Positions 5,311 to 16,108 of a DNA stretch of 64,000 bases are shown here, in pieces; positions within the stretch are counted from its first letter, which is position 1, and every line of letters starts with the position of its first letter. The notes under the pieces are model-generated. The model was not told the DNA's origin. It made no database searches and saw only the letters and a list, made by a program, of their open reading frames with translations. The position numbers were made by a program, and so were the translations under genes. Source of the DNA: Pseudonocardia broussonetiae (GTDB lineage Bacteria > Actinomycetota > Actinomycetes > Mycobacteriales > Pseudonocardiaceae); the NCBI RefSeq assembly GCF_013155125.1, contig NZ_CP053564.1, positions 2,859,501 to 2,923,500 of the forward strand, read 5' to 3'.

Positions 5311-6954
5311 GTGACTCCCGCCCAGCTCGCCGACCTGGTCCGCGCCACTGCGACCGAGGTCCTCACGACGCGCGGCCTGGACGTCGCGGCGCTGCCCGAC
5401 GACGTCGGTGTCGAGCGCCCCCGCAACCCCGACCACGGCGACTACGCCACCAACGTCGCCATGCGCACGGCGAAGAAGGCGGGGGTCGCGCCGCGCGACC
5501 TGGCCGGCTGGCTCGTCGAGGCCCTCACCGGCCGCGACGGCATCGCCTCCGCCGAGATCGCCGGCCCCGGCTTCATCAACCTGCGCCTCGCGGCCGACGC
5601 CCAGGGCGCGGTCGTCGGCGAGGTGCTGGCGGCGGGGGAGGCCTACGGCACCGGCGACGAGTACGCCGACCGCGTCGTCAACCTCGAGTTCGTCTCGGCG
5701 AACCCGACGGGCCCGCTGCACCTGGGCCACACCCGCTGGGCCGCCGTCGGCGACGCCCTGGGCCGGGTGCTGGCCGCGCGCGGCGCGAAGGTCACCCGCG
5801 AGTACTACTTCAACGACGCGGGCGGCCAGATCGACCGCTTCGTCTCCTCCCTGGTGGCCGCGGCCGAGGGACGCCCGACGCCCGAGGGCGGCTACGGCGG
5901 CGCCTACATCGGCGAGATCGCGGCGCAGGTGCTGGCCGCCGAGCCCGGGGCGCTCACCGACCCGGACCGCGACGAGGTGTTCCGCAAGATCGGCGTCGAC
6001 CTCATGTTCGACGAGATCAAGCGCGCCCTGCACGCGTTCGGCACCGACTTCGACGTGTGGTTCCACGAGAGGACGCTGCACGACAACGGGGCCGTCGACA
6101 CCGCGGTGCAGCGGCTCAAGGACTCGGGCAACCTCTACTTCTCCGACGGCGCCTGGTGGCTGCGCAGCACCGACGAGGGCGACGACAAGGACCGGCCCGT
6201 CATCAAGAGCGACGGCAAGCCCGCCTACATCGCCGGCGACCTCGCCTACTACCTCGACAAGCGCGCCCGCGGCTTCGACCTGTGCATCTACATGCTCGGC
6301 GCCGACCACCACGGCTACATCGCCCGGCTCCGCGCGGCCGCGGCGGCGTTCGGCGACGACCCGAACACGGTCGAGGTGCTCATCGGGCAGATGGTGCGAC
6401 TGTTCAAGGACGGCCAGATGCTGAAGATGAGCAAGCGCGCCGGCACGGCGGTGAGCATGGACGACCTGGTCGGGTTCGTCGGCGTCGACGCCGCCCGCTA
6501 CTCGCTGATCCGCAGCTCGATCGACTCGGTGCTCGACCTCGACCTCGACATCCTGAGCCGCCGGACCAACGACAACCCCGTCTTCTACGTCCAGTACGCC
6601 CACGCGCGGCTCTCGTCGCTGGCGCGCAACGCCGCCGACGTCGGGCTGGAGCCCGGCACGGCGTTCGGCCTGCTGGAGCACCCGCGCGAGGGCGAGCTGA
6701 TCCGCACGATCGGCGAGTTCCCGGCCGTCGTCGCCACGGCGGCGGAGCTGCGCGAGCCGCACCGCGTCGCCCGCTACCTGGAGACGCTCGCCGCCACCTA
6801 CCACCGCTTCTACGACTCCTGCCGCGTCCTGCCGATGGGCGACGAGGAGATCTCCGACCTGCACCGCGCCCGCCTCGCGCTGTGCGTCGCCGCGCGGCAG
6901 GTGCTGGCCAACGGGCTGGGCCTGCTGGGCGTCAGCGCGCCGGAGCGGATGTGA
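5311..6954 (+). CDS. argS: Arginyl-tRNA synthetase
   Basis: Cytoplasmic class I synthetase that charges tRNA-Arg; 547 residues, normal for the family. Domain order is the N-terminal additional domain (about 1-110), the catalytic Rossmann fold with the HIGH-type motif HLGH at 137-140 and KMSKR at 372-376, then the all-helical DALR anticodon-binding domain to the C-terminus ([13 protein letters not shown]). GTG at 5311 is the only start that keeps the N-terminal domain intact. It heads an apparent operon with lysA, hom, thrC and thrB. Its TGA overlaps the GTG of a 13-codon ORF that ends on the lysA start. argS next to lysA is a common actinobacterial arrangement. Confidence 0.97.
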
Positions 6955-6992
6955 GCGCCGACGTGCTCTTCTCCGCGGAGGCGCAGTCATGA
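6951..6992 (+). CDS. Bridging micro-ORF between argS and lysA (13 aa)
   Basis: GTG at 6951 overlaps the argS stop as ATGTGA, and the frame encodes [13 protein letters not shown] before a TGA (6990-6992) that overlaps the lysA ATG as ATGA. A GGAGG (6977-6981) inside it sits correctly for lysA. No homology or product role is claimed. It may serve only to carry terminating ribosomes from argS to lysA. Its existence as a translated unit is inference; the overlaps themselves are directly visible. Confidence 0.35.
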
Positions 6993-8431
6993 GGGCGCAT
7001 CCGGCCGGGCCGCTGCACGCCGGCATCACGGCACCGCCCGAGACCGCAGGCCCGCGTCCCGTCGACGCCGCCGGGTTCGACGAGCTGGCCCCCTCGGTCT
7101 GGCCGCGCCACGCCGCGCGCGGGGAGACCGGCGCGCTGGAGGTGGCGGGCGTCGACGTCCGCGACCTCGCCGAGCGCTACGGCACCCCGCTGTTCGTCGT
7201 CGACGAGGACGACTTCCGCTCGCGCGCCGCGGAGTTCGCCGCCGCGTTCGGCGCCGCGTCGGTGCACTACGCGGCGAAGGCGTTCCTGTCGGTCGAGGTG
7301 GCGCGCTGGGTCGCGCAGGAGGGCCTCTCGCTCGACGTCGCGAGCGGCGGCGAGCTGGCCGTCGCCCTGCGCGCGGGCTTCCCGGCCGAGCGGATCGCGG
7401 TGCACGGCAACAACAAGTCCACCGAGGAGCTCACGGCCGCCGTCGAGGCGGGCGTGGGCCGGGTCGTGCTCGACTCCTTCCACGAGATCGCCCGCCTCGA
7501 CGCGATCGCCACCGCGCACGGTGTCGTCACGCCGGTGATGATCCGGCTGACGGTCGGGGTCGAGGCGCACACGCACGAGTTCATCGCCACCGCGCACGAG
7601 GACCAGAAGTTCGGCTTCTCGATCGCGGGGGGTGAGGCGAGCGCGGCGGCCGAGGCGGCGCGGCGGGTGCTGCGCTCCCCGGGGCTGTCGCTGGTCGGGC
7701 TGCACAGCCACATCGGCAGCCAGATCTTCGACACCGAGGGCTTCGAGGTCGCCGCGCACCGCGTCGTGCGGTTCCTGGCGGCGCTGCACAAGGAGCACGG
7801 CGGCGACGCGCTGACCGCGCTCACCACGCTCGACCTCGGCGGCGGCTTCGGCATCGCCTACCGGGCGGACGAGACCCCGCTCGACGTCGCCGAGCTGGCC
7901 GAGGAGCTGCGCGGCATCGTCAAGAAGGAGTGCCACGCCGAGGAGCTCGACGTGCCGGAGATCGCCGTCGAGCCCGGGCGCGCGATCGCCGGCCCGGGCA
8001 CCGTCACGCTCTACGAGGTCGGCACGCTCAAGGACGTCCCGCTGGGTACGTCGTCGGGCCGCCGCTACGTCAGCGTCGACGGCGGCATGAGCGACAACAT
8101 CCGCACCGCCCTCTACGACGCGGTCTACGACTGCAGGCTGGTGTCGCGGTCCTCGGAGCGCGACGGCACCGGCGAGGCCGTGCTCTCGCGCGTGGTCGGC
8201 AAGCACTGCGAGAGCGGCGACATCGTCGTGCGCGACTGCTGGCTGCCCGCCGACCTCGCCCCGGGCGACCTGCTCGGCGTCGCGGCCACGGGGGCGTACT
8301 GCTACTCGATGGCCAGCTCCTACAACCGCCTGCCGCGGCCCGCGGTGGTCGCGGTGCGCAACGGGGAGGCGCGGGTGCTGCTGCGCCGCGAGACCGTCGA
8401 GGACCAGTTCCGGCTGGAGGTCGGCCCGTGA
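6989..8431 (+). CDS. lysA: Diaminopimelate decarboxylase
   Basis: PLP enzyme converting meso-diaminopimelate to L-lysine and CO2, the last step of lysine synthesis. The protein has 480 residues, as in other actinobacteria. The alanine-racemase-like TIM barrel carries the PLP Lys in VHYAAKAF (K97), the HIGSQIF and LDLGGGFGI segments that hold the cofactor phosphate, and [11 protein letters not shown]. The C-terminal beta domain contains [10 protein letters not shown], with the substrate-facing Cys-Glu-Ser. The ATG at 6989 has GGAGG 8 nt upstream. It is joined on both sides by micro-ORFs, from argS and to hom. Its stop TGA overlaps the GTG of the second micro-ORF. Confidence 0.97.
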
Positions 8432-8511
8432 GTCGTGTCACGCGCGCGGGCGGCGGCGCGGGTCCGCACCGGAGCATGACCCCCACTGTCGTCAGCGAGG
8501 AGCGAGCGTGA
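8428..8511 (+). CDS. Bridging micro-ORF between lysA and hom (27 aa)
   Basis: GTG at 8428 overlaps the lysA stop as GTGA. The frame stays open for 27 codons, beginning [10 protein letters not shown] and ending VVSEERA, and stops at a TGA (8509-8511) that overlaps the hom GTG start as GTGA. The hom ribosome-binding site GAGGAG lies inside it. It contains three Thr codons but no run of them, so a classical attenuation leader peptide is not supported. It is recorded as a coupling element of unproven expression. Confidence 0.35.
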
Positions 8512-9851
8512 ACGGGAACGCGGTGCGGGTCGCACTGCTGGGCTGCGGCACCGTCGGGGGCGAGATCGTGCGGCTGCTGCGCGAGCAGGCGGGGGAGCTG
8601 GCCGCGCGGGCCGGGGCCCCGGTCGAGCTCGTCGGCGTGGCCGTGCGGCGCCCGCACAAGCACCCCGAGCTCGGCGACCTGCTCACCACCGACGCCACGG
8701 CGCTGGCCACGCGCGAGGACGTCGACGTGGTCGTCGAGGTGATCGGCGGCATCGAGCCCGCGCGCACCCTGCTGCTGGAGGCGCTCAAGGCCGGCAAGTC
8801 GGTGGTCACGGCCAACAAGGCGCTGCTCGCCGAGGAGGGCGCGGCGCTGGCCGAGGCCGCCGACGCGTCGGGCGTCGACCTGTTCTACGAGGCCTCGGTC
8901 GCCGGCGCGATCCCGCTGCTGCGGCCGCTGCGCGAGAGCCTGGCCGGCGACCGCATCACCCGCGTCGCCGGCATCGTCAACGGCACCACCAACTTCATCC
9001 TCTCCGCGATGACGGAGTCGGGCGCCGGCTACGCCGACGCGCTGGAGGAGGCCACCCGGCTCGGCTACGCCGAGGCCGACCCGAGCGCCGACGTCGATGG
9101 CTACGACGCCGCGTCCAAGGCCGCCATCCTCGCGACGCTGGCCTTCCACACCCGCGTCACGGCCGCCGACGTGCACTGCGAGGGCATCCGGCACGTCACC
9201 GCGTCGGACATCGCGGCCGCGCGCGGCATCGGCTGCGTGATCAAGCTGCTGGCGATCTGCGAGCGCACGCCCGCCACGCCCGACACCCCGGAGTCGGTGT
9301 CGGCCCGCGTCTACCCGGCGATGATCCCCGCCACGCACCCGCTGGCCGCCGTCGACGGCGCGTTCAACGCCGTGTTCGTCGAGGCCGAGGCCGCGGGGCA
9401 GCTCATGTTCTACGGCCAGGGCGCGGGCGGCGCGCCCACCGCGAGCGCCGTGCTCGGCGACCTCGTCGCCGTCGCGCGCAACCGCGTGCACGGCGGGCGC
9501 GGTGCGCGCGAGTCGGCCTACGCCCGCCTGCCCGTGCTGCCGATCGGCGCGGTCGCCACCCGCTACCACGTGAGCCTCGAGGTGGCCGACCGCGCGGGCG
9601 TGCTGGCGGCCATCGCGGGGGAGTTCTCCGCGCAGGGCGTCAGCATCGCCGCGGTGCGCCAGACCGGCGGTGTCGCCGACTCCGCCGGAGCCGACACGGT
9701 CAGCGCCGCGCGGCTCGTCGTCGTCACGCACGCGGCCCCGGAGGCGGCGCTCGCCGCCACGGTCCGGGTGCTGGCCGGGCTCGACGCCGTGCACGCCGTC
9801 GACAGCGTGCTGCGCGTCGAGGACCTCGGACGAAAGGGCGTTGCCCCGTGA
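8508..9851 (+). CDS. hom: Homoserine dehydrogenase
   Basis: Reduces aspartate semialdehyde to homoserine with NAD(P)H, at the branch to threonine and methionine. The 447-residue protein has a Rossmann nucleotide site LGCGTVGG at about 11-18, the catalytic region with [14 protein letters not shown] and [20 protein letters not shown], and a C-terminal ACT domain (about 355-447, beginning [21 protein letters not shown]). The ACT domain points to feedback control by threonine, as known for this family. GTG at 8508 follows GAGGAG. It is coupled upstream by a micro-ORF and downstream directly to thrC by a GTGA overlap. Confidence 0.96.
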
Positions 9852-10951
9852 CCTCCCCCTCCGCGACCACCCCGCTCGCCCCGGTGGGGCGGTCGACCCG
9901 CTGGCCGGGCGTCATCGAGGCGTTCCGCGACCGGATGCCGGTCGAGCCGGGCTGGACCGTCGTCACGCTCGGGGAGGGCGGCACGCCGCTGCTCCCGGCG
10001 CCGCACCTGTCGCAGCTGACCGGCTGCGAGGTGTTCCTCAAGGTCGACGGCGCCAACCCCACGGGCTCGTTCAAGGACCGCGGGATGACGATGGCGGTCA
10101 CCGACGCGCTCGCCCAGGGCAAACAGGGCGTGATCTGCGCGTCCACCGGCAACACCTCCGCGTCGGCCGCCGCGTACGCCGCCCGCGCGGGCATGACCTG
10201 CGCCGTCCTCGTGCCGCAGGGCAAGATCGCGCTCGGCAAGCTCGCGCAGGCCGTGGCGCACGGGGCGCGGATCGTGCAGGTCCAGGGCAACTTCGACGAC
10301 TGCCTGGAGCTCGCGCGCAAGACCGCGGCCGAGTACCCGGTGGCCGCGCTGGTCAACTCCGTGAACCCGACCCGGATCGCCGGGCAGGCGAGCGCGGCGT
10401 ACGAGATCTGCGACGAGCTCGGCCGCGCGCCCGACGTCCACTGCCTGCCGGTCGGCAACGCGGGCAACATCACCGCCTACTGGGCCGGCTACCGCGCCTA
10501 CGCCGCCGACGGGCTGATCGACTCCCCGCCGCGGATGTTCGGCTACCAGGCCGCGGGCGCCGCGCCCCTCGTGCACGGCGCGCCCGTGAAGAACCCGGAG
10601 ACGATCGCCACGGCCATCCGGATCGGGTCGCCCGCGTCCTGGGCGCAGGCGCAGACCGCCCGCGAGGAGTCCGACGGGCGCTTCGCCGCCGTCACCGACG
10701 AGGAGATCCTCGACGCCTACCTGCTGCTGTCCTCCCGCGAGGCGGTGTTCGTCGAGCCCGCGTCGGCGGCGAGCGTCGCGGGGCTGCTGCAGTCCGGCGC
10801 CGACGGAACGCTGCCGCGCGGCTCCCTGGTGGTGTGCACCGTCACGGGGCACGGTCTCAAGGACCCCGACACGGCGCTGCTCACGGCGCCCGCGCCGACG
10901 GTCATCCCCATCGACCCGAGCGCCGTCGCCGACGCGCTGGAGCTGCGTTGA
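9848..10951 (+). CDS. thrC: Threonine synthase
   Basis: PLP-dependent enzyme converting O-phosphohomoserine to threonine and phosphate. At 367 residues it is of the short actinobacterial type. The PLP Lys is K76 in [11 protein letters not shown]; the glycine-rich phosphate loop is PVGNAGN near residue 200; [17 protein letters not shown] also matches the fold-type II signature. The GTG start overlaps the hom stop as GTGA. Its own TGA overlaps the ATG of a 14-codon ORF that ends on the thrB start, so hom, thrC and thrB form one coupled translational series. Confidence 0.96.
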
Positions 10952-10995
10952 TGCGCCCTGCCCCGGTGTCCCGTCCGCTGACGGACCTCGTCTGA
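10951..10995 (+). CDS. Bridging micro-ORF between thrC and thrB (14 aa)
   Basis: ATG at 10951 shares its A with the thrC stop (TGATG). The frame encodes [14 protein letters not shown] and stops at TGA 10993-10995, whose A is the first base of the thrB ATG (again TGATG). thrB has only a weak purine-rich site before it, so reinitiation from this ORF would be a natural route for thrB translation. Expression is inferred, not shown. Confidence 0.38.
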   Translation: MRPAPVSRPLTDLV

Positions 10996-11897
10996 TGGGC
11001 AGGCCCCGTCAGGTCCGCGTCCGCGTGCCGGCGTCGTCGGCCAACCTCGGCCCCGGGTTCGACTCCCTCGGCCTCGCCCTGGGCCTCTACGACGAGGTCG
11101 AGGCGTGCGCGGCCGACGACGGCGTCGCCGTCGAGGTGGTCGGCGAGGGCGCGGGCCAGGTGCCCTGCGACGACCGGCACCTCGTCGTCCGCGCCATGCG
11201 CACCGCCTGGAACATCACCGGCGACGCGCCCGCGGGCTTGCGGCTGCGCTGCGTCAACGCCATCCCGCACTCGCGCGGGCTCGGCAGCTCCGCCGCGGCC
11301 GCGGTGGCCGGGGCCGTCGCCGCCGTCGTGCTCGCGGGCCGCGACGTCGAGCTCGAGCGCGACACGCTGCTGCAGGTCACGGCCGGTATGGAGGGGCACG
11401 CCGACAACGCGGCGGCCAGCCTGCTCGGCGGGTTCGTCATCGCCTGGGAGACCGTCGGGAATACCGCGGGGCGCTTCCACGCTGTACGGCTCGACGCGCA
11501 CCCGGGCATCCACCCCGTGGCGCTCGTCGCGGGGACGGAGTCGTCGACCTCGACGACCCGCGGCCTGCTGCCCGACCGGGTCCCCCTGGTCGACGCCGCC
11601 TTCACCGGCAGTCGCACCGCCCTGTCGGTGCTGGCGTTCACGCAGCGCCCCGAGCTGCTGCTTCCCGCCACCGAGGACCGCCTGCACCAGGGCTACCGGC
11701 GTCCGGCGTACCCGGACTCGGCCGACCTGGTCGACGCGCTGCGCGCCCACGGCGTCCCGGCCGCCATCTCCGGTGCCGGGCCCACCGTGCTCGCCCTCAC
11801 CACCGACGGCACCCTGCCCGCGGGCCTGGACCTGCACGGCTTCTCCACGCTGCCGCTGCCCGTCGACACGGTCGGTGCGCAGGTGGAGATCGACTGA
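10995..11897 (+). CDS. thrB: Homoserine kinase
   Basis: GHMP-family kinase that phosphorylates homoserine with ATP, feeding threonine synthase. The 300-residue protein has the N-terminal strand VRVPASSANLGPGFDSLG, the ATP-binding motif PHSRGLGSSAAAAVAGAVA near residue 92 and the C-terminal GHMP segment AAISGAGPTVLAL. It is the last gene of the argS-thrB run and is followed by the rho leader. A TTGCCG/TAGTCT promoter-like pair appears shortly after its stop. Confidence 0.96.
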   Translation: MGRPRQVRVRVPASSANLGPGFDSLGLALGLYDEVEACAADDGVAVEVVGEGAGQVPCDDRHLVVRAMRTAWNITGDAPAGLRLRCVNAIPHSRGLGSSAAAAVAGAVAAVVLAGRDVELERDTLLQVTAGMEGHADNAAASLLGGFVIAWETVGNTAGRFHAVRLDAHPGIHPVALVAGTESSTSTTRGLLPDRVPLVDAAFTGSRTALSVLAFTQRPELLLPATEDRLHQGYRRPAYPDSADLVDALRAHGVPAAISGAGPTVLALTTDGTLPAGLDLHGFSTLPLPVDTVGAQVEID

Positions 11898-14957: not shown

Positions 14958-16022
14958 ATGCCGGCACCGGCCGTCGACGCGCTGCTCGCCGAGCACGCCG
15001 AGCTGGAGCTGCGCCTCGCCGACCCGTCGATCCACGCCGACGCCGCGCTGGCCCGCAAGCTGGGCCGCCGCTACGCCGAGCTGGGCCCGGTGGTCGCCGC
15101 CGCGCGCGCTCTCGACGCCGCCCGCGACGACCTCGCCGCCGCCCGCGAGCTGGCGGCCGACGAGCCGTCCTTCGCCGCCGAGGCCGACGAGATCGCGGCC
15201 CACCTCCCCGCGCTGGAGACGCGCCTGGCCGAGCTGCTCGTGCCGCGCGACCCGCACGACGGCGACGACGTCGTCATGGAGGTCAAGTCCGGGGAGGGCG
15301 GCGAGGAGTCGGCGCTGTTCGCGGGCGACCTCGTCCGCATGTACACCCGGTACGCGGAGAAGCGCGGCTGGAAGACCGAGGTGCTCGACGCCACCGTCTC
15401 CGACCTCGGCGGCTACAAGGACATCACGCTGATCCTGCGCTCCCGGACCCCCGAGCCCGACGGCGTGTGGAGCGCGCTGAAGTTCGAGGGCGGCGTGCAC
15501 CGCGTGCAGCGGGTGCCGGTCACCGAGTCGCAGGGCCGCATCCACACCTCCGCGGCCGGCGTGCTCGTGTACCCCGACACCGGCGAGGACGCCGACGTCG
15601 AGATCGACGAGAAGGACCTGCGCGTCGACGTCTTCCGCTCCTCGGGGCACGGCGGCCAGAGCGTCAACACCACCGACTCGGCCGTGCGCATCACGCACCA
15701 GCCCAGCGGCATCGTCGTGAGCTGCCAGAACGAGCGCAGCCAGCTGCAGAACCGCGCCCGCGCGATGGAGGTGCTCCGCTCGCGGCTGCAGGCGCAGCAC
15801 GAGGCGGAGCTCGCCGCGGAGGCGTCGGCGGAGCGGCGGTCGCAGGTGCGCACGGTCGACCGCTCGGAGCGCATCCGCACCTACAACTTCCCGGAGAACC
15901 GCATCTCCGACCACCGCGTCGGCTACAAGGCGCACAACCTGAGCACGGTGCTCGACGGCGAGCTCGACGACCTGCTCACCGCGCTCACGGCGGCCGACCG
16001 CGCGGATCAGCTCAGCTCGTGA
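14958..16022 (+). CDS. prfA: Peptide chain release factor 1
   Basis: Recognises UAA and UAG stop codons and triggers peptide release. The 354-residue protein starts at ATG 14958 after GGGAGG. The GGQ loop ([14 protein letters not shown]) is intact, and the codon-recognition tripeptide is PVT in [14 protein letters not shown], the variant of PAT seen in RF1 rather than the SPF of RF2. The C-terminus [19 protein letters not shown] is also typical. It is followed by prmC, whose product methylates the GGQ glutamine. The gap between them holds a perfect hairpin and a bridging micro-ORF. Confidence 0.97.
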
Positions 16023-16108
16023 TCTCGCCGGCGCACTGCAGGAAAGCCACGTTCACGCCATCTGGTTGCGTGAACGTGGCTTTCCTGCAACGGAGGGCGG
16101 CCCGGTGA
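16019..16108 (+). CDS. Bridging micro-ORF between prfA and prmC (29 aa), through a hairpin
   Basis: GTG at 16019 overlaps the prfA stop as GTGA. The frame is open for 29 codons, starting [12 protein letters not shown] and ending FLQRRAAR, and stops at TGA 16106-16108, which overlaps the prmC GTG as GTGA. The prmC ribosome-binding site GGAGGG (16092-16097) lies inside. The whole 22-bp inverted repeat is read through in frame. Whether it is translated is unknown; the geometry repeats that seen three times in the threonine operon. Confidence 0.33.
16037..16089. repeat. Perfect 22-bp inverted repeat between prfA and prmC
   Basis: The arms 16037-16058 and 16068-16089 are exact reverse complements, 22 bp each, with a 9-nt loop CATCTGGTT. 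The arm reads TGCAGGAAAGCCACG and continues TTCACGC. It is AT-richer than its surroundings and lies wholly between the prfA stop and the prmC ribosome-binding site. It could be an intrinsic terminator or attenuator, or one copy of a dispersed palindromic element. I found no second copy in this window. Confidence 0.75.

Follow-up and report, generated by a model that had tools for sequence, protein, structure and literature searches.

In a 64,000 nt stretch of the Pseudonocardia broussonetiae genome (contig NZ_CP053564.1, positions 2,859,501 to 2,923,500; the window), the genes argS, lysA, hom, thrC and thrB follow one another on one strand, and the gaps between them are closed by micro-open reading frames (micro-ORFs), each overlapping both the stop codon of the gene before it and the start codon of the gene after it. 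These micro-ORFs are likely to be translated spacers that pass terminating ribosomes onward from gene to gene. The overlap of stop and start codons that is the hallmark of termination–reinitiation coupling is present here, and one of the micro-ORFs is a copy of a dispersed 38 nt repeat.

Micro-ORFs in the gaps of the operon

A first-pass annotation had reported micro-ORFs of 13, 27 and 14 codons with double overlaps, and their coordinates proved exact on rechecking. Between argS and lysA, the argS stop codon (TGA, 6952-6954) overlaps the GTG at 6951 of a micro-ORF whose own TGA (6990-6992) overlaps the lysA ATG at 6989. The lysA stop codon (TGA, 8429-8431) is likewise overlapped by a micro-ORF that begins with the GTG at 8428 and ends with a TGA (8509-8511) overlapping the hom GTG at 8508. 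Between thrC and thrB, the stop codon of thrC (TGA, 10949-10951) overlaps the micro-ORF ATG at 10951, and the micro-ORF terminates at a TGA (10993-10995) that overlaps the thrB ATG at 10995. The remaining junction, hom/thrC, carries the direct GTGA overlap (9848-9851) that the annotation had described. A GAGGAG sequence at 8497-8502 precedes hom, and there is no evident ribosome-binding site upstream of thrB.

Phase and overlaps at orthologous junctions

To assess these junctions in relatives, we compared the window with 40 genomes of the same genus, locating orthologues via tblastn; the nearest relative in the sample is G059, whose Hom is 98% identical. Among the 41 genomes, the argS–lysA junction has a direct overlap in 17, is bridged in 19, is open in 4 and is not evaluable in 1. 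Direct, bridged and open junctions number 4, 33 and 4 for lysA–hom, and 23, 15 and 3 for thrC–thrB. Closure is achieved either by direct overlap or through a chain of one to five micro-ORFs, with five-link chains at lysA–hom in two genomes (L083 and L088), and all four junctions, hom–thrC included, are closed in 29 of the 40 fully evaluable genomes.

Considering only junctions with a gap, 19 of 23 are bridged at argS–lysA, compared with 1 and 0 when the phase is shifted (this control run counts 18 bridged junctions, a 4 nt gap being dropped), and 15 of 18 are bridged at thrC–thrB, compared with 2 and 5. The number for lysA–hom is 33 of 37. At the four unbridged argS–lysA junctions the lysA start lies no more than 11 nt away, counted from the stop codon's first base. 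In the three open thrC–thrB junctions thrB starts with GTG, and the micro-ORF that departs from the thrC stop codon ends 5 nt inside thrB. One bridged thrC–thrB case (L092) has a thrC frame that looks broken.

At argS–lysA and thrC–thrB, spacer sequence and length vary among relatives, and phase and both overlaps are nearly always kept. That phase is kept despite changes in length supports a constraint that would act on the passage of ribosomes. The neutral-rate breakage of micro-ORFs in relatives that the first-pass annotation named as evidence against its proposal is not seen at these two junctions, and the case for lysA–hom is weaker. The annotation had also treated the three bridges as one device. 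They differ, however: the argS–lysA bridge is a dispersed repeat, the thrC–thrB bridge is a spacer for which the own-genome sample gives no second match, and the lysA–hom bridge is the least certain of the three because bridging there remains high in the phase-shift control. Candidate repeat origins for the second and third bridges were rejected on a comparison with the 81 sequences (1.664 Mb) of the own-genome sample. There the lysA–hom spacer matched itself and ten places, which comprise only GC-rich stretches of 16-18 nt that we judged to be noise, and the thrC–thrB spacer matched only itself.

In many relatives, a GATGAT- or GAGGAT-like hexamer is located about six bases upstream of a hom GTG (lysA–hom gaps, L066-L098; window 8431-8508). 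Judged by eye, this hexamer resembles the -10 box of a leaderless transcript.

Phase of gaps in the genome

The own-genome sample consisted of the window and 80 further stretches, covering 1.664 of 7.29 Mb with 1532 called genes and 949 codirectional pairs. Starts were assigned by homology or by a purpose-built gene caller, which misplaced the thrB start once. The first-pass annotation had argued that double overlaps should be uncommon by chance and had proposed a genome-wide count against shuffled gaps. When gap interiors were shuffled with gap length and boundaries kept, the bridge count was not lowered. Because shuffled interiors bridge equally often at this GC content, an open gap is no evidence whereas its phase is informative, and we discarded this null model.

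Of the 410 gaps that measure 13-150 nt, 45 have both boundary overlaps; 31 of them are in phase 0, 10 in phase 2 and 4 in phase 1 (p = 0.0007 for phase 0 versus phase 2); phase 1 is depleted because the gene caller then picks an upstream start. With lenient starts, 27 of 204 gaps of 13-60 nt are bridged, compared with 5 and 2 when the frame is shifted by one and by two, the shift by one being the fairer control. For all non-overlapping codirectional junctions the count, again with lenient starts, is 49 of 568. The genome-wide excess of bridges is therefore real but modest, and it is confined to short gaps.

These data bear on the possibility that the bridges arise by chance in a GC-rich genome where stop codons are rare and stop/start overlaps are common. 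The equal yield of bridges from shuffled interiors, the preponderance of unbridged gaps and the high lysA–hom control are all as chance would have it, but chance does not account for the phase bias among orthologues and in short gaps genome-wide, nor for the presence of a dispersed repeat at one junction. We consider chance a very improbable explanation overall, and it is disfavoured for argS–lysA and thrC–thrB; for lysA–hom, judged from the window by itself, it may still hold.

A dispersed 38 nt repeat

Elsewhere in the genome, a 24 nt piece of the argS–lysA spacer is matched once, with 2 mismatches, in the recC–recB gap, where it also forms a bridge, and a looser pattern revealed three additional bridged junctions. 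Gene names at these sites are our own reading of the translations and not a database result. A profile was then built from 12 copies, with columns that include the unit ends. In the P. broussonetiae genome it gives nine strong hits at eight places, seven of which are bridges. At the eighth place (L171, G000:C1:4825209) a degenerate copy lacks its terminal RTGA, so that the frame opened by its start runs on into the following gene. Two weaker hits comprise a bridge (L175) and a copy with no gene ends nearby (L174). In total, 40 loci were scored, some of which also contributed to the profile; 33 of these bridge, six have no gene on a side and one does not bridge.

The repeat was detected in 52 of 60 genomes of the genus at an E-value of 0.01, with up to 57 copies, and in 46 of 120 genomes of the family at 0.001. 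In the order it was found in 17 of 200 genomes at 1e-4, of which 15 belong to the family of the window and two to other families, and in the phylum in three of 246 genomes, two of them by a single weak partial hit each. Of 24 loci from the family and order searches, 14 are bridges, one is not (L240) and nine are without a gene. Outside the family, G185 (L246) and G187 (L244), from other families of the order (f12 and f14), carry 16 and 7 profile hits.

We also conducted an independent search with an exact 27 nt core pattern that includes neither the RTGA ends nor the boundary bases, which recovered at least 119 stretches (copies or arrays). The matches listed come from Pseudonocardia, Amycolatopsis, Prauserella, Gandjariella, Qaidamihabitans, a Pseudonocardiales genome and a Rhodococcus rhodnii contig. 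Among the 119 matches listed, eight at locus edges and two duplicates were removed, leaving 109 that were evaluable. Of these, 75 copies or arrays bridge two coding frames exactly, and two (L331 and L341) have a coding frame on each side but form no bridge; copies with genes on both sides are thus exact bridges in 75 of 77 listed cases, even though the pattern lacks the boundary bases. Also among the matches listed, the Rhodococcus rhodnii contig has a single exact core match (L363), which lies outside the family of the window. A two-unit bridging array is present on a sequence labelled as a Pseudonocardia alaniniphila plasmid (L253).

Insertion alleles, tandem arrays and unit structure

The recC–recB junction has a direct RTGA overlap in 19 of 20 relatives, and in L416 the start lies at 10 nt and is reached by a micro-ORF. 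P. broussonetiae and its closest relative differ at this junction by exactly 38 nt, flush with TGA; as the junction is empty in the closest relative, the insertion there is recent. The filled argS–lysA junction likewise differs by exactly 38 nt from a GTGA allele (L062), and by 35 nt from a TGATG allele (L060). Because 38 equals 2 modulo 3, the unit keeps phase. The observation is of exact 38 nt presence or absence at two junctions, and neither an enzyme nor movement was observed.

Tandem units spaced 38 nt apart are joined by an RTGA link in 48 of 48 cases, whereas at spacings of 36, 39 or 45 nt the link is absent in 24 of 27 and present in three; links inside one array are not independent of each other. 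Single reading frames fused across units occur in L066, L067, L083 and L281. Arrays of five and six units with spacings near 39 nt are present in L240, L245 and L281; in the latter two, the whole array forms a single long micro-ORF.

These features bear on whether insertion-site preference could explain the bridges without selection, since a repeat of fixed length (38 nt, or 2 modulo 3) that inserts at RTGA would bridge automatically. Single units are indeed 38 nt long and flush with TGA, and the recC–recB insertion is recent. Nevertheless, non-repeat spacers of many lengths keep phase at thrC–thrB and in short gaps genome-wide, and array spacing and RTGA links co-vary. We therefore regard site preference without selection as unlikely.

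Unit structure was examined in 147 distinct units, all selected because RTGA stands at each of their ends. Bases that form a predicted hairpin (GCC-GA-CG / CG-GA-GGC) hardly change among them, even at third codon positions, and loop positions vary. Conservation thus tracks the nucleic acid more than the peptide. The GGAGG at 6977-6981 sits in the predicted stem, with a mean pairing of 0.61 over 60 units. The folding signal of the hairpin is weak, with an energy only slightly below that of mononucleotide shuffles (mean z -0.94), and the stem hardly varies.

A probable relay of translated spacers

Translated spacing is the explanation we hold most likely. Through successive rounds of termination and reinitiation, a ribosome ending on one gene would restart on the micro-ORF and then on the gene that follows; the micro-ORFs would thus be translated, and coupling would thereby be preserved. 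In published reporters, reinitiation drops steeply with distance: in E. coli a gap of 38 nt lowered it by 80-90% or eliminated it, and in Haloferax a gap of about 22 nt eliminated it (PMC10666635). Given this steep dependence, a junction that receives an untranslated insertion should lose its coupling, and a micro-ORF would re-establish the overlaps at both ends. Insertion at an RTGA overlap would keep the path closed only if the insert is 2 modulo 3 in length, contains no earlier in-frame stop codon and terminates in a fresh overlap of stop and start codons. Insertions that keep the path would be retained by selection, and others discarded. The repeat may spread by a transposition-like step that leaves TGA at both ends, and its hairpin may mask the ribosome-binding site of the next gene until a ribosome crosses it.

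The odds seem to us evenly balanced for a broader proposal, namely that closed translation across the operon is a selected trait in Pseudonocardia, that any phase-keeping relay of one to five links can fill a gap, and that the 38 nt mobile repeat serves as a ready-made link multiplying in RTGA-joined arrays.

Several observations weigh against the interpretation of the micro-ORFs as translated spacers. Strong ribosome-binding sites are present at lysA and hom, so these two genes need not depend on coupling. Bridging at lysA–hom stays high after phase shifts (14 and 21 of 37), and the genomes compared are kin, with counts that carry no phylogenetic correction. In the own-genome sample there is no clear excess in gaps of 61-120 nt (10 of 150 bridged; shifts 6 and 7) or of 121-300 nt (9 of 108; shifts 6 and 4), and 519 of 568 gapped junctions are unbridged. 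A genome of another genus (G092) has no phase excess (7/5/4 in 84 gaps). The six-unit array of L240 lies between two genes without bridging them. Among the exact core matches listed, 32 of 109 have no coding frame detected on at least one side; in the 21 of these 32 that were examined, at least three copies lie inside open coding frames (L263 and L267 antisense, L318 sense), and the repeat is therefore not confined to junctions.

Two further explanations assign the micro-ORFs a different role. If they are translated, the benefit could be ribosome cover against Rho-dependent termination or decay, and not delivery to the next start. Such cover would also favour closed gaps before strong ribosome-binding sites, as at lysA and hom, but it does not require the exact stop/start overlap at both ends that is nonetheless kept, and we consider it quite unlikely. 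The micro-ORFs could also be attenuator-type leader peptides that sense an amino acid, given that they precede amino-acid biosynthesis genes. The three micro-ORFs contain no run of Lys, Thr, Ile or Met codons and the repeat also occurs at unrelated junctions such as recC–recB; we rejected attenuation and give it almost no credence.

If translated spacing is correct, part of the annotated untranslated spacer in such operons would consist of translated links arranged as a relay, and a very small repeat would be spreading among operons with their coupling left intact. Multi-step termination–reinitiation, and ribosome delivery versus RNA unfolding, could then be tested directly on alleles that occur naturally with and without the insert, such as recC–recB in this strain and its closest relative.

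Relationship to known systems

The nearest known kind of element is the mycobacterial interspersed repetitive unit (MIRU), which the 38 nt unit resembles in its manner of working. With a length of about 50-100 nt, MIRUs are larger than this unit, and their target sites are DTGA. Two MIRU traits are present here, in that a short repeat is dispersed in many copies and that an overlap of start and stop codons couples its ORF to the neighbouring gene. Unlike MIRUs, the unit is 38 nt long and resides in Pseudonocardiaceae, its tandem copies follow a rule of chaining or fusion, and non-repeat spacers bridge as well. MIRUs are described as mobile (PMC12548453, section 11).

Mycobacteria also have RTGA-coupled leaderless small ORFs whose stop codon overlaps the next start, the linkage being kept as the peptide diverges (PMC4633059). 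Those ORFs start at the 5′ end of the transcript and are coupled on one side, whereas both ends of the micro-ORFs described here overlap operon genes. Termination–reinitiation at overlapping gene pairs likewise involves ATGA/GTGA and TGATG overlaps and a steep distance dependence (PMC10666635). The present junctions differ in that one to five micro-ORFs intervene in place of a direct overlap between genes.

The suggestion that micro-ORF spacers are an undescribed device must accordingly be narrowed. One-sided small ORFs and MIRUs precede it. Apart from the MIRU statement, our searches of the open-licence literature turned up no account of two-sided bridging micro-ORFs, and none of this repeat, its rule of chaining or fusion or a phase constraint on non-repeat spacers.

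Features of the operon and other intergenic repeats

Feature coordinates are listed in Table 1. The gene that we take to be argS was named from family resemblance and from its label in the first-pass annotation.

Table 1. Genes and micro-ORFs from argS to thrB (window coordinates).
Feature	Position	Strand	Description
argS	5311..6954	+	ORF of 547 aa; orthologues via tblastn
Micro-ORF 1	6951..6992	+	GTG, 13 codons, TGA; copy of the dispersed 38 nt repeat
Inserted stretch within micro-ORF 1	6952-6989, equivalently 6955-6992 (TGA at both ends)		Exact 38 nt difference from the L062 GTGA allele
Repeat core with predicted hairpin GCC-GA-CG / CG-GA-GGC	6957..6983	+	Position table and folds, 147 units
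lysA	6989..8431	+	ORF of 480 aa
Micro-ORF 2	8428..8511	+	GTG, 27 codons, TGA
hom	8508..9851	+	ORF of 447 aa
thrC	9848..10951	+	ORF of 367 aa; GTGA overlap with hom
Micro-ORF 3	10951..10995	+	ATG, 14 codons, TGA; TGATG at both ends
thrB	10995..11897	+	ORF of 300 aa

Tandem 9 nt and 15 nt repeats of GTGA units are found at junctions in L072 (thrC–thrB) and L423 (recC–recB), and they look as if start/stop overlaps multiply by slippage. Elsewhere in the window, a palindromic repeat, GGAAAGCCACGTTCA...TGAACGTGGCTTTCC, is located at about 16041-16084 and recurs intergenically in the same genome (L115, L124, L131, L374 and L385); a single micro-ORF bridges the gap at 16019 that holds it. Another palindromic repeat, GTGAGTGGCGATCGTG..., also recurs intergenically, in L105 (about 8754), L141 (about 11248), L102, L106, L118 and L158, and the gaps that carry it in L105 and L141 are bridged.

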